Shown: positions 4,084 through 21,872 of the stretch, piece by piece
How positions within the stretch are numbered: the stretch's first letter is position 1
Layout of the letters: each line of letters begins with the position of its first letter
Position numbers and translations under genes: made by a program
Notes under the pieces: model-generated
What the model was told of the DNA's origin: nothing
The model's database searches: none
What the model saw: only the letters and a program-made list of their open reading frames with translations
From: a virus
Length of the DNA: 22,889 bases
Reading direction: 5' to 3' (one strand)
IMG/VR virus record: IMGVR_UViG_3300047121_000348
Span: 1-22,889 of that record

Positions 4084-4123
4084 ATCCTAAATGCTTTACA
4101 AGCGGCTATTTTTGAGATAAATT
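4084..4123 (+). promoter_or_regulatory. ATCCTAA-box promoter with late-like octamer
   Basis: ATCCTAA (4084-4090), 4 nt, TTTACA (4095-4100), 17 nt, then TAAATT (4118-4123) at -10. The heptamer and its 4-nt spacing to the -35 recur at four other promoters here. The -10 lies within GATAAATT (4116-4123), one mismatch from the ATAAATA late core, and ends 6 nt before ATG 4130. Transcripts from it would have almost no leader. Confidence 0.6.
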
Positions 4124-4129
4124 ATTTAC

Positions 4130-4576
4130 ATGATACTTAAAGCTAAACCAATTATTAAAAACCAATATTGGGTGGTTACAGATGGCAACCACAAAATAGG
4201 TAATGTTGAAGCAAGTGGTAATGGATATGATTTTAGATCAATCGATGGTACTATCACACATTTTGATGATACTAAATCTATTGAAAAAACCAAGTCCATT
4301 GAGTTTGAAAAACCACATAAAAAACATTACAACGCACATATACCATTTGCTAAATGGCCTACTGAGGGTAAAACATATAATAATGTATATGATGTAAAAC
4401 GAAAATTACACGTTTACACAAAGACAAACAAGAGTAAATGTTACCATGCTGCAGGATATTTTAAGATTAAAATGAATGATGTATGGCAAGTTCTCTTTTG
4501 CCCAAAGTATATTTTTGTACAGCGATATCCTTATCATGGTCCTTACAATACTTTGGAAGAGGCAAATTCTGCATAA
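4130..4576 (+). CDS. Conserved T4-like phage protein of unknown function
   Basis: The product is 148 aa and starts MILKAKPIIKNQYWVVTDGN. It has conserved-looking blocks YDVKRKLHVYTKTNKSKCYH and FCPKYIFVQRYPYHGPY. I recognise the pattern as a hypothetical protein common in T4-like cyanophages; no function is known to me. There is no Shine-Dalgarno sequence before the ATG, and the promoter at 4084-4123 implies a leaderless mRNA. The next gene starts 8 nt after its stop, with a late octamer across the end of this gene. Confidence 0.85.
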   Translation: MILKAKPIIKNQYWVVTDGNHKIGNVEASGNGYDFRSIDGTITHFDDTKSIEKTKSIEFEKPHKKHYNAHIPFAKWPTEGKTYNNVYDVKRKLHVYTKTNKSKCYHAAGYFKIKMNDVWQVLFCPKYIFVQRYPYHGPYNTLEEANSA

Positions 4577-4579
4577 ATA
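4572..4579 (+). promoter_or_regulatory. T4-type late promoter, leaderless arrangement
   Basis: CATAAATA (4572-4579) matches seven of eight bases of the T4 late octamer TATAAATA. It is followed by 5 nt and then ATG 4585. In T4 the start site lies about 5-6 nt past the octamer, so the mRNA would begin at or next to the A of the ATG. Confidence 0.6.
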
Positions 4580-4584
4580 TTGAT

Positions 4585-4776
4585 ATGATTCACATAAAAA
4601 AGTTTATTGACAGAGTTGGAGCTATTGATAATACATCAAATCGTGACTTTATAATGCCACTTAGTGAGGCAAGATCTTTACGTGATGAGATCGCTAAATT
4701 GCTCGCTGACAAAGTAATAGAAAAGCAATCTACTACCGATGTTATTGAAGTACAAGTTAATGGAGGTAGATTTTAA
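4585..4776 (+). CDS. Small conserved T4-like phage protein
   Basis: The product is 63 aa starting MIHIKKFIDRVGAIDNTSNR. The core LSEARSLRDEIAKLLADKV is a clear amphipathic helix, and similar short proteins occur in other T4-like phages (from memory). The longer frame from 4483 is rejected as it overlaps the previous gene by about 90 nt. There is no Shine-Dalgarno sequence; the late octamer ends 5 nt before the ATG. The stop overlaps the next start (TAATG). Confidence 0.8.
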   Translation: MIHIKKFIDRVGAIDNTSNRDFIMPLSEARSLRDEIAKLLADKVIEKQSTTDVIEVQVNGGRF

Positions 4777-5069
4777 TGTCACGTTCACAGCCTAAAATTC
4801 TTGTTGAAATGGTAGACAAGAAAACATATAAAGTTGACCAAGTGTTAGAAGCAGCAGGTATTTGGGCTATTTTTTATGATGATCAACCTATTAATTTAAA
4901 AAATAGTCATCATTATGATAGCAATGCTGTGCCCAAGTATAAAAAAACAAGCTTCAGCAACCCAGGCCACGCTCGCAATCTTTGTAAAAAACTCAATAAA
5001 CAATTTATGACAGATAAATTTTCTGTTGTATTCTTGAATCAGGGAACTAAAGTTTATCCTGACGCATGA
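4776..5069 (+). CDS. Conserved phage protein of unknown function
   Basis: The product is 97 aa, starting MSRSQPKILVEMVDKKTYKV. GGAGG (4762-4766) sits 9 nt upstream, a strong ribosome binding site. The end block (FSNPGHARNLCKKLNKQF, then FSVVFLNQGTKVYP) matches my memory of a widespread phage hypothetical. It is basic and soluble, mixed alpha/beta. It overlaps the next gene by ATGA. Confidence 0.8.
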   Translation: MSRSQPKILVEMVDKKTYKVDQVLEAAGIWAIFYDDQPINLKNSHHYDSNAVPKYKKTSFSNPGHARNLCKKLNKQFMTDKFSVVFLNQGTKVYPDA

Positions 5070-5488
5070 ACCCACTTTCTGACAGAATGGCAGTTGCAGC
5101 TAAAATTCTTCAGTTGACTGAAAACACTATTGATCTACATTTACCTGAAATGTTTTGGATGGACCAACGTCCCCAAGGTGGGTGGCGACTATCTGATTAT
5201 GGTGAAAAACGATTTCAAGAAGCTAAAATAAGCAGCACTACAGTAAAAATGTGGGATATAGATAATAGAATGAAAACTTATCGCACTGCTGTAGATGCTA
5301 AAACATTGCTTGATTTAGACAAGCATATTAAAAGTCCATACTACATAGAATTTCTAAATGGTAACGGTACATTTAAAAAATTTCATATTCAAGTAAAATT
5401 ATATGATGAGCGTATTGGTACCATGATGTTACTGTATGGCAGTGTGTACGATTATTTACAATCTGTTAAAGGAGAAAACAATGACTGA
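5066..5488 (+). CDS. Phage protein of unknown function
   Basis: The product is 140 aa, starting MNPLSDRMAVAAKILQLTEN. The first 60 residues are helical with an aromatic patch (MFWMDQRPQGGW); the rest looks beta-rich (YYIEFLNGNGTFKKFHIQV). It starts by ATGA overlap and its end overlaps the next gene by 8 nt, whose Shine-Dalgarno sequence it contains. No family recognised. Confidence 0.8.
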   Translation: MNPLSDRMAVAAKILQLTENTIDLHLPEMFWMDQRPQGGWRLSDYGEKRFQEAKISSTTVKMWDIDNRMKTYRTAVDAKTLLDLDKHIKSPYYIEFLNGNGTFKKFHIQVKLYDERIGTMMLLYGSVYDYLQSVKGENND

Positions 5489-5645
5489 GCAAAAGAAATC
5501 AAAAAATCCATTTATTAATATGGCTAATGAAGCCAAGGCTAAACAGCAATTCCCACAAAAAGGTGGGTTTAAACCACCATCACCCAAACCTAGTAAAGGA
5601 TTTGGTAATGCTACAGTGGTACGTAGAAGTGGGCGTGGTGGCTAA
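5481..5645 (+). CDS. Small basic, disordered phage protein
   Basis: The product is 54 aa starting MTEQKKSKNPFINMANEAKA, rich in Lys, Pro and Gly, ending VVRRSGRGG. AAAGGAG (5468-5474) lies 6 nt before ATG 5481, which decides this start over the longer frame from 5436. Low complexity and positive charge suggest nucleic-acid contact or packaging with DNA, but nothing more specific. Similar short basic proteins appear in other T4-like phages. It is the last gene of the 98-5645 run. Confidence 0.75.
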   Translation: MTEQKKSKNPFINMANEAKAKQQFPQKGGFKPPSPKPSKGFGNATVVRRSGRGG

Positions 5646-5703
5646 AAATAAATAATTATTGTGTAAACTTTTTGTTTACTCATGCGTTAATAGTAATAGT
5701 ATA

Positions 5704-5765
5704 GTTAATATTAAGTTGCTCTGCGAGATATTAACTTAGTCCGTAAGGATAAGAGAGCATTTTTT
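5704..5765 (+). ncRNA. Structured leader, pseudoknot-capable, ending in T6
   Basis: GTTAATAT (5704-5711) pairs with ATATTAAC (5728-5735). Its loop holds TGCTCT (5717-5722), which can pair with AGAGCA (5754-5759), followed at once by six T. Between them a hairpin CTTA(g)TCC-GTAA-GGATAAG (5735-5753) has a GNRA-type loop. The parts can form an H-type pseudoknot or alternate between a hairpin and a terminator-like stem. The gene at 5779 begins 13 nt after the T run. This resembles a riboswitch or attenuator layout; I cannot assign it to a known class. Transcription into it may come from the upstream operon, as only a weak -10 (TATAGT, 5700-5705) is visible. Confidence 0.5.
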
Positions 5766-5778
5766 ATAAAGAAATATC

Positions 5779-5922
5779 ATGAAACAATTATTCGCAACAC
5801 TATTTGCTGCACTTTTCGCAGTAAGCGCATTTGCAGCAGATGCTAAGAAAGAAGAAAAGAAAGACGCTCCTAAAGCAGAAGCTAAGAAAGAAGAAAAGAA
5901 AGACGCTCCTGCAAAAAAATAA
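5779..5922 (+). CDS. Secreted Lys/Glu/Ala-rich small peptide
   Basis: The product is 47 aa. A classic Sec signal peptide (MKQLFATLFAALFAVSAFA, cleavage after A-F-A) precedes a 28-residue mature part made almost only of A, K, E, D and P, with two copies of AKKEEKKDAP. Such peptides are typical of betaproteobacterial genomes (from memory), so this may be a host-derived gene. The DNA copies are perfect 30-bp repeats. The ribosome binding site is weak (AAAG). A structured leader lies just upstream and the stop is preceded by seven A, see the neighbouring entries. Role unknown; it is exported, not virion-like. Confidence 0.7.
   Translation: MKQLFATLFAALFAVSAFAADAKKEEKKDAPKAEAKKEEKKDAPAKK
5842..5910 (+). 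repeat. Two perfect 30-bp direct repeats inside the secreted peptide gene
   Basis: Positions 5842-5871 and 5881-5910 are identical and in the same frame, with a 39-bp period. Each encodes AKKEEKKDAP. Perfect conservation of synonymous positions suggests recent duplication by slippage, so copy number may vary among related phages. Confidence 0.9.
5913..5919 (+). other. Possible -1 frameshift site, A AAA AAA before stop
   Basis: Seven A end the 5779 gene as GCA-AAA-AAA-TAA. In the zero frame this is the A-AAA-AAA slippery heptamer, and a -1 slip would enter the open frame that continues to 6137. Two overlapping small hairpins lie 10 nt or more downstream (ACGTC/GACGT at 5930-5944, GTTGT/ACAAC at 5943-5955), a plausible but not strong stimulator. 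Confidence 0.35.
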
Positions 5923-6137
5923 TTTTAGCACGTCATAAAGACGTTGTACTACAACCTAAACAAGATTTTGATGATGATTATGAAGTTTATGTATTTGATG
6001 ATAGTATAGGACGTAATCTTACTAGAATTAGAATCGTTACAGAAAATGATGATATATCACCAAGAATTAAATTTAGGTTATGGTTAGCTAGGCAGTTAGC
6101 GTTAATCAAGTTTGATGAAGTATATCAAACAGTATAA
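5919..6137 (+). CDS. Protein-like ORF lacking a normal start codon
   Basis: The frame from 5919 encodes 72 aa with clear protein character: IILARHKDVVLQPKQDFDDD, then YEVYVFDDS, RIRIVTENDD and FRLWLARQLALIKFDEVY. There is no ATG, GTG or TTG between the upstream in-frame stop (5883) and the conserved-looking region; the candidate is ATA at 5919. One G-to-A change would explain this: TGATT instead of TAATT would give an ATGA overlap like others in this genome. Otherwise it may be reached by -1 frameshifting from the secreted peptide, or start at ATA/ATT. A strong terminator follows immediately. Function unknown. Confidence 0.5.
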   Translation: MILARHKDVVLQPKQDFDDDYEVYVFDDSIGRNLTRIRIVTENDDISPRIKFRLWLARQLALIKFDEVYQTV

Positions 6138-6159
6138 AAGGCACTTCGGTGCCTTTTTT
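6136..6159 (+). terminator. Intrinsic terminator with TTCG loop
   Basis: GGCAC (6140-6144), TTCG loop, GTGCC (6149-6153), extended by A-T pairs and followed by six T (6154-6159). It overlaps the stop codon of the 5919 ORF and ends the 5.65-6.14 kb unit. Confidence 0.9.
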
Positions 6160-6198
6160 ATCCTAAGTCTTTGACGCACTGCAACATATAAATAAAAT
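6160..6198 (+). promoter_or_regulatory. ATCCTAA-box promoter overlapping a late promoter
   Basis: ATCCTAA (6160-6166), 4 nt, TTGACG (6171-6176), 16 nt, TAAAAT (6193-6198). A perfect T4 late octamer TATAAATA (6187-6194) overlaps the -10. It follows directly on a terminator and serves the micro-gene run that begins at 6226. Confidence 0.7.
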
Positions 6199-6225
6199 TG
6201 ATACACATACACATGGAGATTGAAA

Positions 6226-6405
6226 ATGTTAATATCACAATTTATGCTCAATATCCTTGAGCGTTTAGCTGAAATGTTTCCAAAAGATGGTTACCAACAT
6301 CGTTTGGAGCGTTATTTAAGTACAAAAAGCATTACAGATGCTGCAACTCTTGATAGTTATATTAAAGAGTTTGAATACAAATCCTACAAGGAATATAACA
6401 AATGA
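6226..6405 (+). CDS. Small helical protein, DUF3563-like
   Basis: The product is 59 aa, starting MLISQFMLNILERLAEMFPK. GGAGA (6215-6219) lies 6 nt before ATG 6226; an in-frame TTG at 6220 is rejected. The layout (short hydrophobic helix, then RLERYLSTKSITDAATLDSY with a conserved-looking LE-YL pattern) resembles DUF3563, a small protein family best known from betaproteobacteria. That comparison is from memory and weak. Its TGA overlaps the next ATG. It may be host-derived; function unknown. Confidence 0.65.
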   Translation: MLISQFMLNILERLAEMFPKDGYQHRLERYLSTKSITDAATLDSYIKEFEYKSYKEYNK

Positions 6406-6521
6406 TTACTTTTTTAAGTAGTATCGCTTATAAAATTTTTAAAACCTTAGAAGCAAGTGGGCAAGCACGTGCTCGCAGATTTATGAGTGAATATCAACGT
6501 GGCATGGGAAAATGGCAATGA
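6402..6521 (+). CDS. 39-aa basic micro-protein
   Basis: The product starts MITFLSSIAYKIFKTLEASG and ends RFMSEYQRGMGKWQ, an amphipathic helix followed by a basic tail. It begins by ATGA overlap with the previous gene and ends by ATGA overlap with the next, which is good evidence of translation. No family recognised. The ending GKWQ recurs in the next protein (RRGKWQ), so the two may share ancestry. Confidence 0.6.
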   Translation: MITFLSSIAYKIFKTLEASGQARARRFMSEYQRGMGKWQ

Positions 6522-6625
6522 CAATTTTAAAAATGATATACGAAATATGGTGTCAAGGGTTGTTAGCTAGTCATTTAACACGCAGGGGTAAATGGCAAAG
6601 TGCAGTAAAATTGATGGGAAAGTAA
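6518..6625 (+). CDS. 35-aa basic micro-protein
   Basis: The product starts MTILKMIYEIWCQGLLASHL and ends TRRGKWQSAVKLMGK. It starts by ATGA overlap. Like its neighbour it is a short hydrophobic helix followed by a basic tail containing GKWQ. Too short for family assignment; its reality rests on the coupled arrangement. Confidence 0.55.
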   Translation: MTILKMIYEIWCQGLLASHLTRRGKWQSAVKLMGK

Positions 6626-6626
6626 T

Positions 6627-6755
6627 ATGATGTTGGCTTATTTTATACTTGGTTCATTAGCACTTGTTGCCTATATTGATGAAAAATTGCACCATCAATA
6701 TGTACTTGGTGAAGAATGGGATTTTTTAACCCCACGTCATCCTAAAAAATTGTAA
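6627..6755 (+). CDS. 42-aa protein with membrane-like N-terminus
   Basis: The product starts MMLAYFILGSLALVAYIDEK and ends EEWDFLTPRHPKKL. The first 16 residues are hydrophobic and may anchor it in the membrane. ATG 6630 is an alternative start; GGGAAAG lies a few bases upstream in the end of the previous gene. Its last codons (CATCCTAAA) contain the ATCCTAA box of the next promoter and its stop lies within the -35, so this end is under double constraint. Confidence 0.6.
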   Translation: MMLAYFILGSLALVAYIDEKLHHQYVLGEEWDFLTPRHPKKL

Positions 6756-6780
6756 TATACAATAGTATATAGTATAAATA
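6739..6780 (+). promoter_or_regulatory. ATCCTAA-box promoter whose -10 is a perfect late octamer
   Basis: ATCCTAA (6739-6745), 4 nt, TTGTAA (6750-6755), 17 nt, TATAAA (6773-6778), where the -10 is the first six bases of TATAAATA (6773-6780). The element lies partly inside the previous coding sequence. The transcript would have a leader of about 55 nt before the strong ribosome binding site of the 6841 gene. Confidence 0.7.
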
Positions 6781-6840
6781 CATTTGAGCGCACATAGGGT
6801 GCACTCAAGATAGACACATACACACAGAAAGGAGAGTAGC

Positions 6841-7119
6841 ATGTCTAATTTTGATCTACCAAAAACTGAAGTAAAATTCAACAAAAACGGTTATGAAATC
6901 CGTACAGAAATCCTTAAAATGGCTAAAGACCTAATCAGCGAGGAATACCATAGTAAGTTTCACGGTTGGGAAATGAGCGTACAACGTGATGATAAAGGTG
7001 TTGTCACAACTACCGTAGGTATGCCTCAGTTCCCAGGCATTGAACAAGTCCTTAAAACTGCAGAAACTATGTACAACTTTGTTAACCACGCTTCACAAAG
7101 CATGACCAAAACAAAGTAA
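6841..7119 (+). CDS. Conserved T4-like phage protein, probably abundant late product
   Basis: The product is 92 aa starting MSNFDLPKTEVKFNKNGYEI. The blocks NGYEIRTEILKMAKDLI and PQFPGIEQVLKTAETMYNFV match my memory of a small protein conserved in T4-like marine phages. It has the strongest ribosome binding site in the window (AAAGGAG with 6-8 nt spacing), its own combined promoter, and a terminator just downstream. This implies high expression as a single-gene unit, as for a virion or DNA-associated protein. Function not known. Confidence 0.85.
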   Translation: MSNFDLPKTEVKFNKNGYEIRTEILKMAKDLISEEYHSKFHGWEMSVQRDDKGVVTTTVGMPQFPGIEQVLKTAETMYNFVNHASQSMTKTK

Positions 7120-7140
7120 TTTAGGATAATTTCAATCCTT

Positions 7141-7167
7141 AAAAGCACAGCTAGTCTGTGCTTTTTT
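7141..7167 (+). terminator. Intrinsic terminator
   Basis: AAAAGCACAG (7141-7150) and CTGTGCTTTT (7156-7165) form a 10-bp stem with a 5-nt loop, followed by a T run to 7167. It closes the 6841 single-gene unit. Confidence 0.9.
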
Positions 7168-7177
7168 ATTATCGTTT

Positions 7178-7186
7178 TGCTACAAT
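7178..7186 (+). promoter_or_regulatory. Extended -10 promoter for the GIY-YIG-like gene
   Basis: TG-C-TACAAT (7178-7186) is an extended -10 element without a clear -35, lying directly after a terminator and about 29 nt before ATG 7215. A promoter is needed here because transcription has just been stopped. Confidence 0.4.
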
Positions 7187-7214
7187 ACCTAAAATTTACA
7201 TGGAGATTACCCAT

Positions 7215-7856
7215 ATGACAGATTCAGGTTATATCTACGTTGGTGGCTATTATCACTATAGCGGTAAGGATATTAGTTCACTTACTGAGAAAAAAGTTGG
7301 CAAAAGTATTAACGTACCAAGCAGAGAAAACGCACTAAACAGCACTAAGTTTACTATTGGTTATACAATGATTAAGTATTGGCAAGTTGATAGTATGAGC
7401 AGAGTTGAAAAATTGTTACATGCTATATTGCCTGAACGTATGCAAGGTGAATGGTTTGAAGATACTGATGGTATGTTAGTTGAACGTGTGTCTAAATTTA
7501 TGGATATTTACGGTGCAAGCGAACAAAATGTTAACCCAACTGACCTTGAACCTGCTGCAGCAAAATATATTACAAGTAATAAATCACGTGATCGTGTAGC
7601 AGAATTAGCAGGACAAACATTTAGCCAATCTAAAAATGACACTAATGGTAATCCTATTAAAGTTAGTTTCACTGTAAACGCAGATGGTTCATTTATTTGC
7701 CATGAAAACGGTAAAACATATGATACTAGCCCACATAGTGCATTTTGTGAACTATGGGCTAATCGTGTAACAGGTGAAGCCAAGACTAACGTATGGACAG
7801 GACCACGTAACGAGCATGGTCGTAGTATGGATCAAGAACTTTCATTATTAAAATAG
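7215..7856 (+). CDS. GIY-YIG superfamily protein (T5orf172/MUG113-like)
   Basis: The product is 213 aa. ATG 7215 follows GGAG (7202-7205) by 9 nt; the frame upstream runs into a terminator. Residues 6-81 match the T5orf172/MUG113 branch of GIY-YIG nucleases: YIYVGG (6-11), KVGKS (27-31), R37, then VEKLLH (64-69) with the expected catalytic Glu65, and GEWF (78-81). Residues 150-197 form a second part (NGKTY 165-169, SPHSAF 172-177, W194) resembling the RAMA/DUF4357 modules linked with modified-DNA recognition; this is tentative. It may act as a DNA nuclease on host or rival DNA. It is placed just before small unknown genes. Confidence 0.75.
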   Translation: MTDSGYIYVGGYYHYSGKDISSLTEKKVGKSINVPSRENALNSTKFTIGYTMIKYWQVDSMSRVEKLLHAILPERMQGEWFEDTDGMLVERVSKFMDIYGASEQNVNPTDLEPAAAKYITSNKSRDRVAELAGQTFSQSKNDTNGNPIKVSFTVNADGSFICHENGKTYDTSPHSAFCELWANRVTGEAKTNVWTGPRNEHGRSMDQELSLLK

Positions 7857-7864
7857 AGGTAATT

Positions 7865-8146
7865 ATGTCACATATTGAATCATCAACCATTAAAAACAAC
7901 TTTACACTATGGCAAGCAATAGGGTTGTCAGGTGATCAACAATTAGCAGAACATTTGTTAGATCGTGGGTTTTATCGTATTCCAATGGACAAATTTAATA
8001 CAGTGAAACAAATTTTAAAAGAAGCTGAGGTTAGTGCTAAGTATCAATACCTTGCAGACAAAGTTGTAAAAAAACCACAAGCGACACATTTTAGTGTATC
8101 ATTAAAACCACAGAAAAAGAAAGTATTGACAAGAGTATCAATTTAG
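7865..8146 (+). CDS. Phage protein of unknown function
   Basis: The product is 93 aa, starting MSHIESSTIKNNFTLWQAIG. GAGG (7856-7859) lies 5 nt before the start. The first two thirds are helical (GDQQLAEHLLDRGFYRIPMD); the end is very basic (KPQKKKVLTRVSI), suggesting nucleic-acid binding. It follows the GIY-YIG-like gene by 8 nt, so the two are probably co-transcribed. Not recognised. Confidence 0.75.
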   Translation: MSHIESSTIKNNFTLWQAIGLSGDQQLAEHLLDRGFYRIPMDKFNTVKQILKEAEVSAKYQYLADKVVKKPQATHFSVSLKPQKKKVLTRVSI

Positions 8147-8155
8147 ATATATCAT
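8126..8155 (+). promoter_or_regulatory. Possible sigma70 promoter before 8183
   Basis: TTGACA (8126-8131) with TATATC (8148-8153, 16-nt spacer) or TATCAT (8150-8155, 18-nt spacer). It overlaps the last codons of the previous gene and lies 28-35 nt before ATG 8183. No ATCCTAA box. Confidence 0.45.
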
Positions 8156-8182
8156 ACTTGTATCTTAACAAAGGACGCAAGT

Positions 8183-8479
8183 ATGGACCTTCAACGTATA
8201 CCCCTTCAATATTGTGACTTTGATAAAACAAATAAAGTTTTAGGTTTATCTAATACGTATTTCGGTGGTAAATTCCCGCAACAGTTTTTTGTAACTAGTC
8301 ATCATACAGGTAAAGAAGTACGTTTTAAGCAAGTTGATTGCTACGATGTACTTTATGATGAAGATGGACATGATGGTGAAATCGCTTATTATCGCCCTAT
8401 AGGTAATGTTCCTAATGTAGAGTATTTGTATGTTACTAACGATGGACGAGTGTTTCTTGACCCTTACAGTATTCGTTAA
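8183..8479 (+). CDS. Phage protein of unknown function
   Basis: The product is 98 aa, starting MDLQRIPLQYCDFDKTNKVL. AAAGGA (8170-8174 region) lies about 8 nt upstream. It is beta-rich and aromatic (QQFFVTSHHTGKEVRF, YRPIGNVPNVEYLYVTNDGR), acidic in the centre (YDEDGHDGE). No signal peptide or membrane segment. Not recognised. The next gene follows behind a late promoter. Confidence 0.75.
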   Translation: MDLQRIPLQYCDFDKTNKVLGLSNTYFGGKFPQQFFVTSHHTGKEVRFKQVDCYDVLYDEDGHDGEIAYYRPIGNVPNVEYLYVTNDGRVFLDPYSIR

Positions 8480-8481
8480 TT

Positions 8482-8489
8482 GATAAATA
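8482..8489 (+). promoter_or_regulatory. T4-type late promoter, leaderless arrangement
   Basis: GATAAATA (8482-8489), 5 nt, ATG 8495. Same geometry as at 4572-4585, even sharing the TT after the octamer. No Shine-Dalgarno sequence is present, so a late leaderless mRNA is predicted. Confidence 0.65.
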
Positions 8490-8494
8490 TTAAC

Positions 8495-8896: not shown

Positions 8897-8921
8897 CATA
8901 GTTTCAACACCCTGCTATACT
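8893..8921 (+). promoter_or_regulatory. sigma70-type promoter for the AAA+ ATPase gene
   Basis: TTGACA (8893-8898), 17 nt, TATACT (8916-8921), the same -35/-10 pair and spacing as at 39-67. Upstream lies ATCATTAA followed by 4 nt, a degenerate version of the ATCCTAA box. The leader is about 27 nt with GGAG. Confidence 0.75.
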
Positions 8922-10045: not shown

Positions 10046-10077
10046 GGGGTAATTGGGTAACCAATTACTCCTTTTTT
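10046..10077 (+). terminator. Strong intrinsic terminator with GTAA loop
   Basis: GGGGTAATTGG (10046-10056) pairs with CCAATTACTCC (10061-10071), one G-T wobble, GTAA tetraloop, then six T (10072-10077). It ends the ATPase unit; the next -35 starts 2 nt later. Confidence 0.92.
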
Positions 10078-10078
10078 A

Positions 10079-10117
10079 TTGACATACCAAGAATTTAAGT
10101 TATACTGATTATAAATA
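10079..10117 (+). promoter_or_regulatory. Tandem sigma70 and late promoters for uvsW
   Basis: TTGACA (10079-10084), 16 nt, TATACT (10101-10106); then a perfect late octamer TATAAATA (10110-10117) ending 9 nt before ATG 10127. There is no Shine-Dalgarno sequence, so either start gives a very short leader. In T4, uvsW is known as a late gene, which fits the octamer. Confidence 0.75.
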
Positions 10118-10126
10118 TATAAACAC

Positions 10127-11584
10127 ATGCCTACTGCCAAAATTATTGTAAAAGATGAAGTCAACGTAAAAATAGAAGGACTTCATCTAGATGACAGAAA
10201 AACCTTAGTAAAACGATTTGAGTACGAGATGCCAGGCGCACGATACATGCCAGCAGTCAAACTCGGTCGTTGGAGCGGGAAAGTATCCTATTTCCAACTA
10301 GGGGGTAGTACGTATATCAACCTGCTTGATCAAATTATTCCATATCTTGAAGAACGTGGATATGATATTGAGCTTGATGATATACGTGATTACAAGCAAT
10401 CGTTTACATTTAACAGTGTAACTGAACAGACTTTTGCAAGTCATGTATGGCCTACAGGTCATCCTAAAGTAGGCGAACCTATTATCTTACGTGATTATCA
10501 AATTGAAATAACTAATCAATTTCTAGCCAATCCACAATGTGTGCAAGAGATTGCCACAGGTGCGGGTAAAACATTGATTACAGCAGCATTAAGTCATAGT
10601 TGTGAGGCATTTGGTAGGACTTTGGTTATTGTCCCAAACAAGTCATTAGTAACACAAACTGAAGAAGATTATAAGAATTTAAACTTAGATGTTGGTGTAT
10701 ATTTTGGAGACAGAAAAGAATTAGGACGCACACATACTATTGTTACTTGGCAAAGCTTAAACAATATTATTAAAAATACTCAAGATGGTGTTGGTGACAT
10801 TACGATACAAGAATTTATTGAAGATGTGGTAGCATTGATTATTGATGAATGCCATATGGCTAAAGCAGATGTGCTTAAATCAATGTTAAGTGGGTCTATG
10901 TCTAAAATAGCTATACGATGGGGATTAACAGGAACAGTACCAAAAGAAAAGTTTGCGTCAGAGGCATTGTTAACTTGTATTGGACCTGTTATTAATAAGC
11001 TAGCTGCAACTGATTTACAAGATCGTGGGGTATTGGCAAACTGCCATGTGCACGTAGTACAATTACAAGATCATTCACTGTTTAAGAATTATCAAAGTGA
11101 ATTGAAATATTTACTAGAACAAGATAATAGGTTGGATGAAATTGCCAATATTATTGACAAAATAAAGGAAAGTGGTAATACTCTTATATTGGTAGATCGT
11201 ATTACAGCAGGAAAAGAGTTAGTAAAACGTTTACCTAATTCAGTATTTGTCAGTGGTACAACTAGCAATAAAAAACGTAAAGAAGAATATGCAGAGGTTG
11301 CGGTGCAAGATGAGAAAATTATTGTTGCAACCTATGGTGTAGCAGCAGTAGGTATTAACATACCAAGAATTTTTAATTTAGTCTTTATCGAGCCAGGTAA
11401 GAGTTTCGTACGTGTAATACAAAGTATTGGGCGTGGATTGCGCAAAGCTGAAGATAAAGATTTTGTGCAAATATGGGATATTACTTCAAGTTGTAAATTT
11501 TCTAAACGTCATTTGACACAGCGAAAAGCATTTTACAAAGAAGCGAATTATCCTTTTACAATGGAAAAGTTGAACTATAAATGA
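10127..11584 (+). CDS. uvsW: UvsW-type superfamily 2 DNA helicase
   Basis: The product is 485 aa, a little shorter than T4 UvsW. The N-terminal 100 residues resemble the small UvsW-specific domain (LVKRFEYEMPGARYMPAVKL). Helicase motifs are complete: Q-like LRDYQIEI, Walker A TGAGKT (144-149), DECH (240-243), LTGT, and motif VI QSIGRGLRK (432-440). UvsW unwinds R-loops and branched DNA, helping switch from origin-dependent to recombination-dependent replication and rescue forks. It heads an operon of overlapping genes to 14181, joined to the next gene by ATGA. Confidence 0.95.
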   Translation: MPTAKIIVKDEVNVKIEGLHLDDRKTLVKRFEYEMPGARYMPAVKLGRWSGKVSYFQLGGSTYINLLDQIIPYLEERGYDIELDDIRDYKQSFTFNSVTEQTFASHVWPTGHPKVGEPIILRDYQIEITNQFLANPQCVQEIATGAGKTLITAALSHSCEAFGRTLVIVPNKSLVTQTEEDYKNLNLDVGVYFGDRKELGRTHTIVTWQSLNNIIKNTQDGVGDITIQEFIEDVVALIIDECHMAKADVLKSMLSGSMSKIAIRWGLTGTVPKEKFASEALLTCIGPVINKLAATDLQDRGVLANCHVHVVQLQDHSLFKNYQSELKYLLEQDNRLDEIANIIDKIKESGNTLILVDRITAGKELVKRLPNSVFVSGTTSNKKRKEEYAEVAVQDEKIIVATYGVAAVGINIPRIFNLVFIEPGKSFVRVIQSIGRGLRKAEDKDFVQIWDITSSCKFSKRHLTQRKAFYKEANYPFTMEKLNYK

Positions 11585-14528: not shown

Positions 14529-15410
14529 GTGGCTGCATATCAAACGCAAATGTATTTATATAATCAAAGACAATATGTAGTTTTATTAAGTTCTGCAGGA
14601 TCTATTGCAACAAGGAGATATAGTACAGTGTATGCTAAACAACTAATGTTAAATCGTGGTGTTGATAATGTGCTTGAATTTGCATTTATTAATCAAGACC
14701 AAAAACCAATCAATTTGGCAGGAAAGTATTTGTATTTTCGTGTTCTAAACAATAATGGCACTGAGCTATTATTAACCAAACAATTAACTCCTAACTTGCC
14801 CGTTACAGGTATTTTTAATTTAGAATTATCAATATCTGAAGTAAATCAAGTACCCCCACAATATTGCTACTATACGATTGAATTAACCAATACACCGTGG
14901 GTTAATACGGATACCGCAGGATCTGCAGTATTTACTAATGCAAGTGGTATTGCACGTGGAGATTTGGTTATTACTGATAGCATATTCCCCGCTGTTCTTC
15001 CATCATTAGATGTAACTATTCCTACCCATCCTAGACCAACACAGGGTAATGCAATGCAAGGTGGCAATAGTACACAGCCACAACCAAAGACTTATTATAG
15101 TAGTGAAATAAAGAATGAAGATGCGCAAATGCTTACCCTTCAATATCGCATTGAAGAATTTTGTGGTAACATTACTATAGAAGGTAGCAATATTGCAGAC
15201 TTTTCACGTGCTTATAGTATTGGTAACACTGTTGTTTATGGCAATGCCAATGCCTTACCTTATCCTACAGGCGTAACTCAAACAGTTGGCGAGACTATCA
15301 CAGGATATCATCCATATGTTAGACTAGCGATTCAAAATTACGGTAGTGGACCACCTGAAACAAATCAGCAGTACTTAAAAGGTGATGTTGTTAAAATTCT
15401 TGCTAGATAA
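14529..15410 (+). CDS. Virion structural protein, BppU-like N-terminal domain
   Basis: The product is 293 aa from GTG, with AAGGAA 8 nt upstream and a late promoter. Residues 37-110 (QLMLNRGVDNVLEFAFINQD, KPINLAGKYLYFRVLNNNGT, GIFNLELSISEV) look like the Ig-like N-terminal domain of baseplate-upper-type proteins. A Pro/Gln/Gly linker (HPRPTQGNAMQGGNSTQPQP) leads to a second beta-rich domain resembling a carbohydrate-binding or receptor-contact fold (LTLQYRIEEFCGNITIEGSN). It is therefore a likely tail or baseplate component on the virion surface. The exact T4 counterpart is not evident. Confidence 0.85.
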   Translation: MAAYQTQMYLYNQRQYVVLLSSAGSIATRRYSTVYAKQLMLNRGVDNVLEFAFINQDQKPINLAGKYLYFRVLNNNGTELLLTKQLTPNLPVTGIFNLELSISEVNQVPPQYCYYTIELTNTPWVNTDTAGSAVFTNASGIARGDLVITDSIFPAVLPSLDVTIPTHPRPTQGNAMQGGNSTQPQPKTYYSSEIKNEDAQMLTLQYRIEEFCGNITIEGSNIADFSRAYSIGNTVVYGNANALPYPTGVTQTVGETITGYHPYVRLAIQNYGSGPPETNQQYLKGDVVKILAR

Positions 15411-15449
15411 TCCTAAGTAGTTGAATACGTAAGTGTTTTGTGTCATAAT
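15410..15449 (+). promoter_or_regulatory. ATCCTAA-box promoter for the primase gene
   Basis: ATCCTAA (15410-15416), 4 nt, TTGAAT (15421-15426), 17 nt, CATAAT (15444-15449). The -10 ends 8 nt before ATG 15458 and no Shine-Dalgarno sequence exists, so the primase mRNA should be leaderless or nearly so. Confidence 0.7.
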
Positions 15450-15457: not shown

Positions 15458-16438
15458 ATGAATACGATCATTAATCAGACCTTACAATTTTGGTCACAAC
15501 GTAAGACCAAGCGTACATCAGGTGGATGGGTATCTGCCAATGCGGTATGCTGTCATCATCGTGGTCATCGACCTGATACAAGGATGCGTGGAGGTTTAAT
15601 TCATACTGAAGAAAAGTTAACCTATTCATGCTTTAATTGTAATTTCAAATGTGGCTATGCAGCAGGTAAATTATTTTCCTCGCATTTTAAATTATTCTTA
15701 TCATGGATTGGCATGGGCGATGATGAGATACAGCATCTTGCCATAGAAGCGATGAAATTGCGTGATACAACGCAACTTATTCAAAAACGTGAAATACGTG
15801 AGATTGTATTTAAAGATATACCTTTACCCAAAGATGCTATTCCTATAGATCCAACGATAGGTACACATCAACCATATGTAGATTTTTTGAACAACCGTGG
15901 GTTTACACCACAAGATTATGATTTTTATATTACTCCACATGCAGAAGGTAGGGATCGTGATAGAGTAATTATACCGTATTATCTTAATAATAGAATGGTG
16001 GGGTATACTAGTAGATATTACGATAATCGTAAACCTAAGTATATTTCTGAGCAGCAATCAGGATATGTGTTTAATATGGACGCACAACATCCAACGTGGC
16101 AAGTATGTATTCTAGTAGAAGGGCAATTTGACGCTTTAGCTATTGGTGGATGTGCTATAATGTCCAATCAAGTATCCGAAAAACAATCATGGTTACTTGC
16201 AAAGTTGGAACGAAGAATAATTTTTGTGCCTGATCGAGATGAAGCAGGTATGAGTGGTATTGATTCAGCATTAAAACTTGGTTATTCAGTTAGTATTCCT
16301 CCTTATTGGGATAAGACTGTTAAAGATGTAAATGATGCTGTTATTAAATATGGTCGTTTTCCAACATTATTAAGTATTATTCAACATGCAACAACAAGTG
16401 CCGCAAAGATAAAAATTTATAAAGATAAAATACTATAA
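15458..16438 (+). CDS. 61: DNA primase, gp61-type
   Basis: The product is 326 aa against 342 in T4. ATG 15458 is chosen over an in-frame TTG at 15449 that lies in the -10. An N-terminal zinc-binding module has Cys31, Cys32, His33, His34, His37 and Cys58, Cys61, Cys65. The Toprim core has VEGQFDAL with Glu221 and a downstream DRDEAG (259-264) that provides metal-binding acids. The enzyme makes RNA primers for lagging-strand synthesis and works as a primosome with the gp41 helicase, which is the very next gene (TAATG overlap). The promoter is of the ATCCTAA class. Confidence 0.93.
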   Translation: MNTIINQTLQFWSQRKTKRTSGGWVSANAVCCHHRGHRPDTRMRGGLIHTEEKLTYSCFNCNFKCGYAAGKLFSSHFKLFLSWIGMGDDEIQHLAIEAMKLRDTTQLIQKREIREIVFKDIPLPKDAIPIDPTIGTHQPYVDFLNNRGFTPQDYDFYITPHAEGRDRDRVIIPYYLNNRMVGYTSRYYDNRKPKYISEQQSGYVFNMDAQHPTWQVCILVEGQFDALAIGGCAIMSNQVSEKQSWLLAKLERRIIFVPDRDEAGMSGIDSALKLGYSVSIPPYWDKTVKDVNDAVIKYGRFPTLLSIIQHATTSAAKIKIYKDKIL

Positions 16439-17823: not shown

Positions 17824-17838
17824 TACTGTAATATTTTA

Positions 17839-17846
17839 GATAAATA
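17839..17846 (+). promoter_or_regulatory. T4-type late promoter, nearly leaderless
   Basis: GATAAATA (17839-17846), then 7 nt and ATG 17854. No ribosome binding site is present. The mRNA start would fall within 2-3 nt of the ATG. Confidence 0.65.
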
Positions 17847-17853
17847 CTACATC

Positions 17854-18099
17854 ATGGAAAAAAAGACTCGCAGTTTATTAGAAGAATTAGAAGCGTTAAG
17901 TCGCACACGTGATACTAAGCACATTATTGAAAGTCGTGCCAACAGTATTATTACAAGTGCTATACATTTATTAGAAGTGATTGAACGCAATTACACTCCT
18001 GAACAAGCTGAAATATTAGAGCGTAAATTGCTTGTTGCCATTAAAAATCGTGATAGCGATAAATTTGCAAAGAGTTTAAAGAAGAATTCTGATGAATAA
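17854..18099 (+). CDS. Small conserved T4-like late protein
   Basis: The product is 81 aa, starting MEKKTRSLLEELEALSRTRD, and all helical. The core HIIESRANSIITSAIHLLEV followed by YTPEQAEILERKLLVAIKNR matches my memory of a short protein conserved in T4-like marine phages. The high helix and charge content suggests a coiled coil and a structural or scaffolding role. It overlaps the next gene by 8 nt. Confidence 0.85.
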   Translation: MEKKTRSLLEELEALSRTRDTKHIIESRANSIITSAIHLLEVIERNYTPEQAEILERKLLVAIKNRDSDKFAKSLKKNSDE

Positions 18100-19027
18100 T
18101 TTTGTACTAGAAGATTTGGATCAAGTTTTTAGTGCAATTAGACAACAACTTGATCGCAGAGATCCGTCTAAAATTCAAACGGACAATGCAGCTATTAGTG
18201 CAAAAATCAAAGCTACACTACAAGCATATCCTACATGGGCACAACAAACACGTGAATTAGCGGGATATCAACCTCCTACTACGGTTGATCAACCAACTAG
18301 TTATCAAATGGGTGTGGGACCAAAAAAGATAGCACAAACCACTGCACAACAGCGTCAAGTCCAACAAAAAACTAAGCAGGATATGTTGCCTACACCTAAT
18401 TTAAAGGCAGCACCTACATCTATAGCAGGATATGATGCTAAACGTGCTGCGGCAGCTACTAGAGCACAAGCTGATATGAGGCGTGGTAAACCACCTGATT
18501 ATACAACACCTATGCCAACCTTAGTGCGTCAACGACAAGCACGTGGTATGACTGAAGGTAAGTTTAGTGATTTATATGCTTTATTAGAGTCTGCCATACT
18601 TGAACAACAACAAGACCCAGGTAGCTTTACTAATTACCTAAAAACCATTGTAAAATTTGATCCAAGTAAAAGTGATCCTGTTTATAAACAACAGATTCAA
18701 ATGATTGAAAAATTATACAATGAGAATAAAAAAGATGAAGCAGAAAGAGAAGCAGCACAAATATTAGAGCTAATTTATAAGCAACAATTATTAAAAAGTA
18801 GAACAGGCTCAGCAACAAGTGATGTAGGTTCGTTTGATGACTATGATAAAACCAACGTAAATAAGTTTTTAACTAATGTACGTGCTAATTATTATAATGA
18901 AGATGAACTTACAAACATTGTTTTATATTCTTTGCTCAAGTTAAAAACAAAATATCCACAGCAGTTTAACCAAATAACTGCGGATATTGACAGTACTTTA
19001 GCCAACTATCAAAAACAAATTACCTAA
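18092..19027 (+). CDS. Probable virion-associated protein, Gln/Ala-rich
   Basis: The product is 311 aa, starting MNNFVLEDLDQVFSAIRQQL. The first 150 residues are low-complexity and rich in Gln, Ala, Thr and Pro (TTAQQRQVQQKTKQ), likely disordered. The second half is helical (EKLYNENKKDEAEREAAQIL, LTNIVLYSLLKLKTKYPQQF). The segment MTEGKFSDLYALLESAI in the middle looks like the N-terminal motif of other late proteins here and could be where an older gene was fused. No family recognised. The late promoter upstream and the structural genes around it suggest a virion role. An A5/T8 stretch just after its stop could be a very weak terminator. Confidence 0.8.
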   Translation: MNNFVLEDLDQVFSAIRQQLDRRDPSKIQTDNAAISAKIKATLQAYPTWAQQTRELAGYQPPTTVDQPTSYQMGVGPKKIAQTTAQQRQVQQKTKQDMLPTPNLKAAPTSIAGYDAKRAAAATRAQADMRRGKPPDYTTPMPTLVRQRQARGMTEGKFSDLYALLESAILEQQQDPGSFTNYLKTIVKFDPSKSDPVYKQQIQMIEKLYNENKKDEAEREAAQILELIYKQQLLKSRTGSATSDVGSFDDYDKTNVNKFLTNVRANYYNEDELTNIVLYSLLKLKTKYPQQFNQITADIDSTLANYQKQIT

Positions 19028-19049
19028 AAACCGATTTTTTTTCAACTTT

Positions 19050-19057
19050 GATAAATA
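19050..19057 (+). promoter_or_regulatory. T4-type late promoter for 19098
   Basis: GATAAATA (19050-19057) lies 40 nt before ATG 19098. The leader contains a strong AAGGAG, unlike the leaderless set. Confidence 0.7.
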
Positions 19058-19097
19058 AATGTAGAGCTTATGGCTTTTAAAAATAAGGAGATTTAAA

Positions 19098-19496
19098 ATG
19101 GCAGGTTTTACAAGAGTTAATGGTGATTTTCTACCCGTAGCAGTATATGATGACGATACAGGTAATGCTTATACTAATAGTGCTAACGTCAATGCAATGA
19201 CAAGTGGTGTACCCGTACAGCCACAAGGTCCTGCTCTTGAGTTTTTCACAGTCACAGGTAATGGTTCACAGATTGCTGACTATGCAACAGCAGTATTTCA
19301 GTCAATCGAGCAATTAGCTACCATTCATTTGTATCAGTACACAAATGCTACAGATGACACATTAGCAATTGCTGTTTATCCTGTACGTGCATGGACAACA
19401 GCTACATTAGACACAGCTATCACCAATGGTATTCAAGCAGCTAATAGCAGCTTCACAGCAAATATCGCTGTATCAAATGGTGCAACATTTAGCTAA
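19098..19496 (+). CDS. Small structural protein, single-gene late unit
   Basis: The product is 132 aa, starting MAGFTRVNGDFLPVAVYDDD. It is rich in Ala, Thr, Asn and beta-type residues (VQPQGPALEFFTVTGNGSQI, LAIAVYPVRAWTTATL). The pattern matches a small protein seen in T4-like cyanophages and pelagiphages, often annotated as structural (from memory). A late promoter, strong AAGGAG ribosome binding site and a strong terminator isolate it as a high-output unit, as expected for a capsid or tail decoration protein present in many copies. No membrane segment. Confidence 0.88.
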   Translation: MAGFTRVNGDFLPVAVYDDDTGNAYTNSANVNAMTSGVPVQPQGPALEFFTVTGNGSQIADYATAVFQSIEQLATIHLYQYTNATDDTLAIAVYPVRAWTTATLDTAITNGIQAANSSFTANIAVSNGATFS

Positions 19497-19528
19497 ACCA
19501 TAATATATAATAATATATTATACATACT

Positions 19529-19554
19529 AGCCCCGATTTTTTCGGGGCTTTTTT
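19529..19554 (+). terminator. Strong intrinsic terminator
   Basis: AGCCCCGA (19529-19536) and TCGGGGCT (19542-19549) form an 8-bp stem with a T5 loop, followed by T to 19554. A second AT-only hairpin (TAATATAT/ATATATTA, 19501-19520) lies just upstream. Confidence 0.95.
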
Positions 19555-19560
19555 ATTGGC

Positions 19561-19568
19561 GTTAAATA
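19561..19568 (+). promoter_or_regulatory. Late promoter, leaderless arrangement after a terminator
   Basis: GTTAAATA (19561-19568), two mismatches from TATAAATA, then 5 nt and ATG 19574. Because a terminator ends only 19 nt before the ATG, new transcription must start in this short interval, which makes a leaderless start almost unavoidable. Confidence 0.6.
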
Positions 19569-19573
19569 TCCTT

Positions 19574-20005
19574 ATGAAGATAAGGTGCGTAACGCTATAC
19601 GATATAACTCAAACAGGAATAAATCATCGTAGAGCAAAATTAGATAGAAAAGATGATCTTGGTATAAAAGGTAGCCAACAATCAAACTTTGAAACCATAC
19701 TACAATGTATAAACATACGTGCCCAACCTGAGGAAATTTCTTCACCTATTAAAGAACACAAAAAATTATCAAACCTTTTTGGTAACAAATATAAGAACAG
19801 TGGTATGGTACCCATGTGGTCATTTACCTTTAATGTACTACAAAATGGTGTGTTTCAAGTAGGTGAAAATGAGTTAGAAGGACTATATACTGATTGTGAA
19901 GCAGTACCTATGATTAAAGGTTTAGAAGAAATAGGTATACTTTCAGGTACATTGAACACTTCTAAAGAATATAAAAATATACACTTTGAAATAATTGATG
20001 CGTAA
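19574..20005 (+). CDS. Conserved T4-like protein of unknown function
   Basis: The product is 143 aa, starting MKIRCVTLYDITQTGINHRR. ATG 19574 is the first after the terminator; an upstream TTG in frame at 19556 is rejected. The pattern KIRxVTLYDITxTG and SNFETILQCINIRAQP matches a hypothetical seen in T4-like marine phages (from memory). There is no Shine-Dalgarno sequence. It overlaps the next gene by 8 nt. Neighbours suggest a late, virion-assembly context. Confidence 0.85.
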   Translation: MKIRCVTLYDITQTGINHRRAKLDRKDDLGIKGSQQSNFETILQCINIRAQPEEISSPIKEHKKLSNLFGNKYKNSGMVPMWSFTFNVLQNGVFQVGENELEGLYTDCEAVPMIKGLEEIGILSGTLNTSKEYKNIHFEIIDA

Positions 20006-20477
20006 AATACCCTATGACAAGTTAGCAGATATTGCTGAAATCGTACTACCAAAAGTTTTAAATCGAATTATTGTTGATACGGATGGTGGCTATCTACTTT
20101 TTAATGAATACTTTATCAAAAAAAGAACTGATAATTATTACCTAATTAGGCGTGGTGATGAAAAAGAATTTGTGTTTGTTAAATTAAGACATGCAATAAC
20201 TTATGCTATTTTGCATAAAAATTTTAAGATGTATGAAGCTAGTAGGGTACATGAGTTAGACAACTTACTTGATGGATTATCATTGGAACAAAAATTGTAT
20301 CAAAAGTACAAGAAGAAGAAAAAGTTAGATGAATATATATTACATTGGATTAAGTTACAAAATGTGTTTGACAAACATAGTAAATTTACAGATGAATTAG
20401 ATAAATACATTATAGTTGCTAAAGACTGCCAACAAAAAGGATTTGAACATGAGATTAACAGAACTAAACGAAAGTAA
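19998..20477 (+). CDS. Conserved T4-like protein of unknown function
   Basis: The product is 159 aa from ATG 19998. It starts MRKIPYDKLADIAEIVLPKV and has helical, very basic stretches (LRHAITYAILHKNFKMYEAS, YQKYKKKKKLDEYIL, CQQKGFEHEINRTKRK). The same layout exists as a hypothetical in T4-like cyanophages (from memory). It overlaps the previous gene by 8 nt and the following core-like gene by 29 nt, which suggests coupled translation in a head-assembly module. Confidence 0.85.
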   Translation: MRKIPYDKLADIAEIVLPKVLNRIIVDTDGGYLLFNEYFIKKRTDNYYLIRRGDEKEFVFVKLRHAITYAILHKNFKMYEASRVHELDNLLDGLSLEQKLYQKYKKKKKLDEYILHWIKLQNVFDKHSKFTDELDKYIIVAKDCQQKGFEHEINRTKRK

Positions 20478-21159
20478 AGCTAGCAAAGTTGCTAATCGTG
20501 CGCTTAAAGAGCACTACAACATGCAATATGATTTAGATAAGCTAGATTTTCGTACAACGAAAACAATGCTTGACAAAGTACGTACTTTATTGCAAGGTGT
20601 TCGTTCAACAAGCAAGTTACATGAAAGTCACAAAGATAGTTCATATTTAAAACTATTGATGATGGAACAGATGTTATCTAATCATTTTTCTGACTTAAAT
20701 GTTAAACCAAATATTGTTGTAGAAGATGAAACAGTTACTTCTGCAGCTAATGTTATGGCAGCAGAAAATATGATTCAAGAGTTGCAGAAAATGGTTGAGC
20801 GTGTTAGTGATATGCGTGTAAAAGATCTTGCAGCCATTGAAGAACAAATGCGTCAAACTGAGCAAAGTGCACAAGGTGCAGATCAGTTTAGCCAAAGTGC
20901 TAGCGAAGCATTAACACAATTACAAGATGCAATTGCGCAAGCTAAGTCATCGATTGTAGGCGCACAAGATGTATTGTTAGGACGTGCAGCATCAGCAGGG
21001 TTTGATGCAGCAGGAGCAGCAGCACCTGTTAGTGACGAACCTGCAATGGCAGCACCTGCAGCAGAATTAGGCGCAGACATGGACGCAGCAGAAGAAATTC
21101 CTGAACTTCCCGCACCTGATGAGGAAGAAGTAGGTGGAGCAGGTAGAGAGTTGCGTTAA
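20449..21159 (+). CDS. Putative prohead core (internal scaffold) protein
   Basis: The product is 236 aa. ATG 20449 has AAGGA 7 nt upstream and is preferred to the longer frame from 20416. The first 80 residues (MRLTELNESKASKVANRALK, LDKVRTLLQGVRSTSK, LKLLMMEQMLSNHF) are followed by a long coiled-coil stretch and an Ala/Asp/Glu-rich acidic tail (PAAELGADMDAAEEIPELPA). Length and composition match proteins annotated as prohead core in T4-like marine phages. Such proteins fill the procapsid and are cut by the head protease. Codons in the tail are repetitive (GCA-rich). Confidence 0.85.
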   Translation: MRLTELNESKASKVANRALKEHYNMQYDLDKLDFRTTKTMLDKVRTLLQGVRSTSKLHESHKDSSYLKLLMMEQMLSNHFSDLNVKPNIVVEDETVTSAANVMAAENMIQELQKMVERVSDMRVKDLAAIEEQMRQTEQSAQGADQFSQSASEALTQLQDAIAQAKSSIVGAQDVLLGRAASAGFDAAGAAAPVSDEPAMAAPAAELGADMDAAEEIPELPAPDEEEVGGAGRELR

Positions 21160-21161
21160 TC

Positions 21162-21506
21162 GTGCGATTTCGTGAATTTGTCAAAGAAGATACTGAGCAG
21201 GATGATCCTCTACGTGTGAGGATCACCTCTATTCTTAGTCAATTACGTGCACGACAAGAAGATAGCGGTGCAAAGAAAAATTATAGCGTTGATTCAGTAC
21301 TAAATATTTTGGGTAAAGATGGTATTCATATCAGTAAAGATGACCTTTATGACATAATCCAAGATGATCCTATTAAAAATATTATTTCGGACTTTGATAA
21401 AGGAGTTTCTTTTAAGGGTCTTGATAAAGGCAGTGACGCATTACCTACCGATGATAGTGCGAAAATTGTTAAAGATAAAGCGATAAAAGCAACAAAATCA
21501 ATGTAA
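21162..21506 (+). CDS. Conserved T4-like protein following the core gene
   Basis: The product is 114 aa from GTG 21162, 2 nt after the preceding stop; GAGAG lies about 10 nt upstream. It starts MRFREFVKEDTEQDDPLRVR. YSVDSVLNILGKDGIHISKD and IKNIISDFDKGVSFKG match a hypothetical found after the core-like gene in T4-like cyanophages (from memory). It is acidic and probably binds the head-assembly complex. It is followed 2 nt later by the Fe-S carrier gene. Confidence 0.83.
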   Translation: MRFREFVKEDTEQDDPLRVRITSILSQLRARQEDSGAKKNYSVDSVLNILGKDGIHISKDDLYDIIQDDPIKNIISDFDKGVSFKGLDKGSDALPTDDSAKIVKDKAIKATKSM

Positions 21507-21508
21507 GC

Positions 21509-21829
21509 ATGATTAGGTTAACTGAAGTAGCAGCAAACAAAGTTAAAACATTATTAGAAAACCGTGGGCGTGGAATAGGAATCGCAGTCGGTGTAAAAAC
21601 CACAGGCTGCAGTGGTTTAGCATATACCCTAGAATATGTTGACCAAGTTCAAATTGGTATGACTATACATGAATCATATGGTGTACACGTTTATACAAAA
21701 CCTGAGCACCATGTATATCTCAATGAATTAGAAGTAGATTATCAGAAAAAAGGATTAAACGAAGGATTTGAGTTCATCAATCCACTCGAAAAAAGTCGTT
21801 GTGGTTGTGGCGAAAGTTTTACTGTTTAG
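21509..21829 (+). CDS. A-type iron-sulphur cluster carrier (IscA/HesB family)
   Basis: The product is 106 aa, the usual family length. All three cluster-binding cysteines are present: Cys34 in TTGCSGLAY, and Cys98 and Cys100 in the C-terminal CGCGESF. These match Cys35, Cys99 and Cys101 of E. coli IscA. The family delivers [2Fe-2S] or [4Fe-4S] clusters to apoproteins in the cytosol. It is a known auxiliary gene of marine T4-like phages. It has no ribosome binding site and sits 2 nt after the preceding gene, so it is likely translated by coupling and made late with structural proteins. Confidence 0.95.
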   Translation: MIRLTEVAANKVKTLLENRGRGIGIAVGVKTTGCSGLAYTLEYVDQVQIGMTIHESYGVHVYTKPEHHVYLNELEVDYQKKGLNEGFEFINPLEKSRCGCGESFTV

Positions 21830-21832
21830 TTT

Positions 21833-21872
21833 ATCCTAATTGGTTGACATTCTTAATAAATTATTATAAAAT
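21833..21872 (+). promoter_or_regulatory. ATCCTAA-box promoter for the nuclease gene
   Basis: ATCCTAA (21833-21839), 4 nt, TTGACA (21844-21849), 17 nt, TAAAAT (21867-21872). The -10 ends 10 nt before ATG 21883 and there is no Shine-Dalgarno sequence, so the leader is 0-4 nt. Confidence 0.72.

Follow-up and report, generated by a model that had tools for sequence, protein, structure and literature searches.

A promoter class is described here from a stretch of virus DNA of 22,889 bases with 34% guanine plus cytosine, the entire IMG/VR virus record IMGVR_UViG_3300047121_000348, referred to below as the window. The window carries T4-type replication genes, identified by PHROGs matches as those of a UvsW-like helicase, a primase, a DnaB-like helicase and an exonuclease. 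Promoters of the class have the dinucleotide CC at about -44/-43, 7–8 nucleotides (nt) before a weak -35 region that keeps TTG and 30–31 nt before a -10 element that is often extended. This spacing is conserved in an uncultured clade of T4-related phages; in much of the class exactly 6 nt separate the end of the -10 element from the start codon, a feature missing from the initial annotation of this DNA, and Shine–Dalgarno (SD) sequences are lacking. The class is, on this evidence, very probably real. Its sites are probably sigma-70-type phage promoters of a distinct, middle (replication-stage) class, which appears to be an undescribed variant of phage middle promoters.

The word ATCCTAA occurs on the + strand at 4084, 6160, 6739, 15410 and 21833. 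It had been reported to stand at each position exactly 4 nt before a -35-like hexamer, with a -10-like hexamer 16–17 nt further on and with replication and recombination genes downstream; both distances were found at all five positions, and the downstream genes include those of the primase, the DnaB-like helicase and the exonuclease according to PHROGs. The first promoter (4084–4123, +) comprises ATCCTAA 4084–4090, TTTACA 4095–4100 and, after 17 nt, TAAATT 4118–4123; it departs from the TTG of the other four sites by having TTT. Its ATG at 4130 gives d = 6, d being the number of nt between the -10 end and the start codon, and the transcript is predicted to be leaderless. The second (6160–6198, +) follows a terminator and comprises ATCCTAA 6160–6166, TTGACG 6171–6176 and, after 16 nt, TAAAAT 6193–6198, overlapping TATAAATA at 6187–6194; a 27-nt gap containing GGAG precedes ATG 6226. 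The third (6739–6780, +) lies at the end of a short open reading frame (ORF), with ATCCTAA 6739–6745, TTGTAA 6750–6755 and, after 17 nt, TATAAA, where TATAAATA occupies 6773–6780; a 62-nt gap, also containing GGAG, leads to ATG 6841. The primase promoter (15410–15449, +), whose position is kept in relatives, comprises ATCCTAA 15410–15416, TTGAAT 15421–15426 and, after 17 nt, CATAAT 15444–15449, with ATG 15458 at d = 8, and is followed by the DNA primase gene (15458–16438, +; PHROG 47, E 1.5e-39). The exonuclease promoter (21833–21872, +) comprises ATCCTAA 21833–21839, TTGACA 21844–21849 and, after 17 nt, TAAAAT 21867–21872. It precedes, at d = 10 and without an SD sequence, the gene of a PD-(D/E)XK-type exonuclease (21883–22593, +; PHROG 298, E 2.5e-55; Pfam PF12705). 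The gaps of the primase and exonuclease promoters are too short for an SD sequence. A probable sixth member (10070–10106, +), with CC 10070–10071, 7 nt, TTGACA 10079–10084, TATACT 10101–10106 and TATAAATA 10110–10117, precedes ATG 10127 of the UvsW-like helicase gene (10127–11584, +; PHROG 16; Pfam ResIII and Helicase_C above the cut-off, UvsW_N below its cut-off); its CC doubles as the end of a terminator stem and is thus ambiguous.

Four more copies of ATCCTAA, absent from the initial annotation, lack the arrangement, two of them within genes on the + strand (10461 and 12148) and two on the - strand (1575 and 7121). The total of nine compares with a mean of 3.31 in shuffled sequence, and nine or more were reached in 0 of 100 shuffles. 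Since the word had originally been picked by eye, every 7-mer at every spacing of 0–12 nt before TTG was scored on the + strand, TTG being the only anchor tried. ATCCTAA-N4-TTG was the top-ranked pair (four sites; p 3.6e-8, against 1.3e-5 for the runner-up), and none of 600 Markov simulated windows (orders 1–3, 200 each) had a best pair as extreme. The check named in the initial annotation, whether the motif is any commoner than in shuffled sequence, thus came out in its favour. A generic sigma-70 scan of the window found no excess of promoter-like sites (79 observed, 96.7 expected), so that a -35/-10 match by itself is weak evidence. A binomial test of non-coding location was discarded, since at 6160 and 6739 the gene caller had predicted spurious ORFs on the reverse strand.

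The full word does not define the class, contrary to what had been supposed. The window helicase was matched at 100% in four near-identical contigs, three of which aligned to the window at 99.88–99.95%. One of them (G004, 99.88% over 7.6 kb) extends 27.2 kb downstream, where 0 of 8 copies of ATCCTAA are followed by N4-TTG. In 76 relative loci with 63–72% helicase identity, N4-TTG follows only 3 of 310 copies, and ATCCTAA was rejected as a conserved unit; two of the three loci with the full arrangement (L034 and L035) carry apparently the same genes in the same places. Given this rarity in relatives and in the downstream extension, the word is a local form: relatives share just CC and its distances to TTG and -10, and ATCCTAA is the lineage-specific form, in this window, of the conserved element.

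The comparison used 23 sequences, some of them near-duplicates: 20 large relative contigs, two loci, and the window joined to its 27.2 kb extension; genes were called by a simple script and then grouped into ortholog clusters. With clusters equally weighted and only non-coding bases considered, the distance from CC to the following TTG was 7 nt in 6.8 of 33 clusters and 8 nt in 3.5 of 31, and distances of 0–6 and 9–15 nt were each seen in at most 2.0 clusters. Relative to the -10 element of leaderless-type promoters, CC was found at 30 nt in 19 of 34, at 31 nt in 8 of 33, and never at 27–29 or 32–34 nt. The CC in cluster 14 (gene 11581) was not counted, as there it encodes ...YPF where uvsW ends.

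Upstream of the primase, relatives keep CC immediately behind the previous gene's stop codon, TTG 7–8 nt further on, and an extended -10. With +1 denoting the initial base of the start codon, 32 of 42 distinct sequences have the beginning of CC at -44, four at -45 and three at -43 (39/42 within 1 nt), which agrees with the location around -45 to -40 proposed in the initial annotation. In these promoters CC is as conserved as the -10 region and has A/T-rich bases from -42 to -37 next to it, the adjacent columns being far less conserved. The -10 reads TA...T in 42/42, with TG in most (39/42 for each base), in rows that were selected by their -10: two of 44 distinct sequences were dropped because their -10 was poor, and a usable start was lacking in 13 of 76 loci. 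Because start codons were chosen by the best -10, d = 6 at the primase is not independent evidence. The predicted leaderless start is GTG in 18 of the 42 sequences (L016, L019, L034 and others), several of them with stop codons just upstream.

The leaderless layout was evaluated across all genes, the -10 being scored with TTG 15–18 nt before it. Among 1,277 distinct gene upstreams, d = 6 was found in 52, against 0–13 at any other d from 0 to 59. By ortholog clusters, 12 of 521 had d = 6 and no other distance exceeded 9, with a second mode near 30–34 that represents a leadered class. Without gene calls, 22 relative contigs contained 68 promoter-like sites with an ATG or GTG frame of at least 45 codons at d = 6, against 4–25 elsewhere. 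SD-like words were present in 2 of 79 promoters at d 3–10 and in 60 of 112 at d 15–60 (452 of 1,277 overall), and in 0 of 25 leaderless-type promoters. In the controls, T4 and PA5oct, the d = 6 counts were 1 and 2, with no peak and no CC at 30–31 nt. From the -10 placed 6 nt before ATG or GTG and the lack of SD sequences, leaderless mRNAs are predicted for the d = 6 members, and we consider this likely. CC occurred in 20 of 25 leaderless-type and 6 of 35 leadered promoters, seven of the 67 promoters falling outside both groups; the Fisher p of 1.4e-6 is too small, because orthologs were counted singly.

A held-out test was carried out on the cluster 19 gene, which encodes a protein of about 336 amino acids and lies upstream of uvsW in relatives; the CC/-10 layout had been noticed there before the test. 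One tested member of this protein family had no PHROGs or Pfam match, and another had no tblastn match at E 1e-3 in a set of 50,697 phage records. Relatives of the gene were present in at least 80 loci, of which 79 were usable; 16 were excluded as already in the first set, and merging of duplicates left 46 distinct upstreams. Among the matches listed, a -10 of 5/6 or better ends 5–7 nt before the start in 37 of 46 (exactly 6 in 34), and CC starts at -45 to -43 in all 37 with a predicted -10 (exactly -44 in 24). In eight of these 37 a T stretch follows CC without a break, so that CC may there close a terminator stem; this is not so in the other 29.

We infer a bound factor, the start sites and the timing of expression from these sequences. 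The host polymerase with sigma-70 would use the -10 and TTG, and a protein that the phage most likely makes early would contact CC from a place adjoining sigma region 4 or the alpha C-terminal domain. Once bound at CC, this factor would offset the weak -35. In the d = 6 members the RNA would begin with the start codon itself, and the leaderless mRNAs would be translated without SD pairing. The mechanism as a whole, with a factor at CC, a sigma-70 promoter and transcription starting at the start codon, is somewhat favoured. It may further be suggested, tentatively and with a measure of doubt, that the class represents a MotA-independent middle programme, in which an early phage factor at CC -44/-43 would yield leaderless replication mRNAs, some with GTG starts, and would couple the early-to-middle transcription switch to a translation-initiation switch.

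Several observations weigh against this reading. The promoters at 6160 and 6739 have long gaps and are not leaderless, those at 15410 and 21833 sit 2 and 4 nt off d = 6, the promoter before gene 4130 is missing at its orthologs in contigs G005 and G006, and the full arrangement is missing from the downstream extension mentioned above. Nine of the 46 held-out sequences, among the matches listed, had no -10 ending 5–7 nt before the start; in five of them (L447, L456, L459, L461 and L489) the -10 lies directly before the chosen ATG, so that the start may be wrong, and they were counted as misses. CC is also frequent farther upstream, in up to 3.2 of 28 clusters at 16–20 nt before TTG, where terminators and preceding genes lie, and in up to 3.2 of 27 at 39–44 nt before the -10, where terminators and coding words lie. 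A marine relative contig (L512) has a -10 at d = 6 but no CC at -44. CC was not significantly tied to a weak -35 (TTGAC in 8 of 30 CC-positive and 17 of 37 CC-negative promoters, p 0.13), and compensation for a weak -35 by CC is therefore hypothetical. A candidate for the protein was not identified, and whether the factor that would read CC is phage-encoded is considered evenly balanced.

That no phage activator was identified favours the view that CC is read by the polymerase of the host or by one of its activators, with no phage factor involved, as in a host-style regulated promoter. CC and the A/T-rich stretch at -42 to -37 occupy the place around which alpha subunits and host class II activators bind. 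Strong leadered TTGACA promoters in the same contigs are, however, mostly without CC (7 of 10 with exact TTGACA), and a purely host reading is regarded as rather unlikely. If CC were instead an operator at which a phage repressor silences these genes, a position near -44 beside the -35 would also be suitable; but its spacing is fixed to the -10 (30–31 nt) while TTG shifts by 1 nt, which suits a contact with polymerase, and many -35 hexamers depart widely from the consensus. This makes a repressor improbable.

Still less probable is that some sites belong to the T4-type late promoters, marked by TATAAATA, with the upstream word incidental. All three + strand copies of TATAAATA in the window (6187, 6773 and 10110) adjoin CC sites; the octamer is nevertheless not in excess (4 observed, 4.83 expected in shuffles), and it accompanies only three of the six CC sites, those at 4084, 15410 and 21833 being without it. 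It adjoins the longer-gap CC sites alone (6160, 6739 and 10079), which are possibly middle/late double promoters. A chance combination of AT-rich promoter-like sequence and a coincidental word would agree with the lack of excess of generic sigma-70 matches and with the missing arrangement in the next 27 kb. It is extremely improbable in view of the 600 simulations and the conservation at the primase, and because the held-out orthologs show both CC and the -10.

Other characteristics of the window and of related contigs were also recorded. In the interval 39–74, TTGACA-N17-TATACT ends 6 nt before ATG 74 and forms a leaderless-type promoter without CC. A 10-pair hairpin (TTGAGCGCACATAGGGTGCACTCAA) at 6784–6808 lies in the leader behind the 6739 promoter and has no T run on the + strand. 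Terminators abut the next promoter, with the T stretch between stem and TTG, at 10046–10084 of the window and before the cluster 19 gene in loci L431–L505. The region 21509–21829 encodes an IscA-like iron-sulphur protein (PF01521) and 7158–7856 a T5orf172-domain protein (PF10544). The host was not found in a scan of bacterial and archaeal genomes, which gave nine loci, all of them phage contigs (seven inspected). Such contigs (L509–L517), one of 335 kb, occur in assemblies labelled as marine bacteria of several phyla or as an archaeon and are probably mis-binned.

To our knowledge, middle promoters cannot be recognised in many T4-related phages. Those of the methylophage Melnitz may, its authors concede, be too divergent to detect (PMC9004378). 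For one such T4-related clade the present class provides a concrete, testable motif, joined to a predicted leaderless translation of replication genes, and points to an undescribed switch for middle-stage genes in a large group of uncultured phages. Leaderless GTG starts, if true, would inform on host ribosomes, and the exact geometry allows direct tests both for the missing activator and of the start sites. No description of such a promoter class was found in the literature at the level of titles and abstract openings.

Among five named phages with a related primase, PA5oct has a -10 that sits 6 nt before an internal GTG of the annotated primase, with no CC; the annotated GTG (L161 4944) lies directly after TATAAT, and a leaderless start would be better placed at the second GTG, 6 nt further on. 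By eye, no such layout was seen at the primase of the other four, Phosso, Atu_ph07, XaC1 and 2.275.O. Class II activator promoters of the CRP type, with a site centred near -41.5, are alike in that the site overlaps or abuts the -35 around -44; unlike in them, conservation here is limited to CC and no palindrome was established. The leaderless layout can be compared with that of phiYS40, a phage that is, as far as we know, unrelated to this clade. Most middle and late transcripts of this Thermus phage are leaderless according to a review (PMC3594737), and the layout thus has precedent. In phiYS40, which has another host, the evidence is experimental, whereas here the leaderless state is a prediction; CC is not mentioned in the passage of the review on these transcripts.

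T4 early promoters are alike in having a sigma-70 -35/TGn/-10 and conserved bases upstream of the -35 (PMC2988021), and differ in their strong consensus -35 and UP elements. The leadered TTGACA promoters of the relatives resemble this early class. Contigs G006, G015, G016 and G022 contain many copies of a separate promoter type, in which TTGACA precedes ATAAAT or AATAAT and which lies some 30 nt upstream of the gene; this is probably the early class.

In T4 middle promoters the -35 is replaced by the MotA box TGCTTtA, which has its centre at -30 and stands 12 ± 1 bp from the -10, with TGn in about half (PMC2988021). Unlike these, CC promoters have CC at -44/-43 and keep TTG at -35, and the distinctness from the MotA class claimed in the initial annotation stands. 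No MotA box appeared in the primase consensus at -35 to -26, which is TTTGTTTTTG with TT conserved at -35/-34 (42 promoters), and TTGCTT occurred in just 2 of 20 CC-positive leaderless-type promoters. MotA and AsiA (PF09114 and PF09010) were each found in 0 of 19 records, with T4 positive for both as control, an absence that is not complete because 14 of the 19 records are contig fragments. A good sigma-70 -10 with frequent TGn, as in T4 middle promoters, is present at the primase. Both classes would combine a phage element with a sigma-70 -10, often with TGn, and have replication and recombination genes downstream (PMC2988021 for T4). The genes behind the CC promoters, those of the primase, the exonuclease and UvsW, with a gene of the T4 RNase H-like exonuclease family in single relatives, fit a T4-like middle class.

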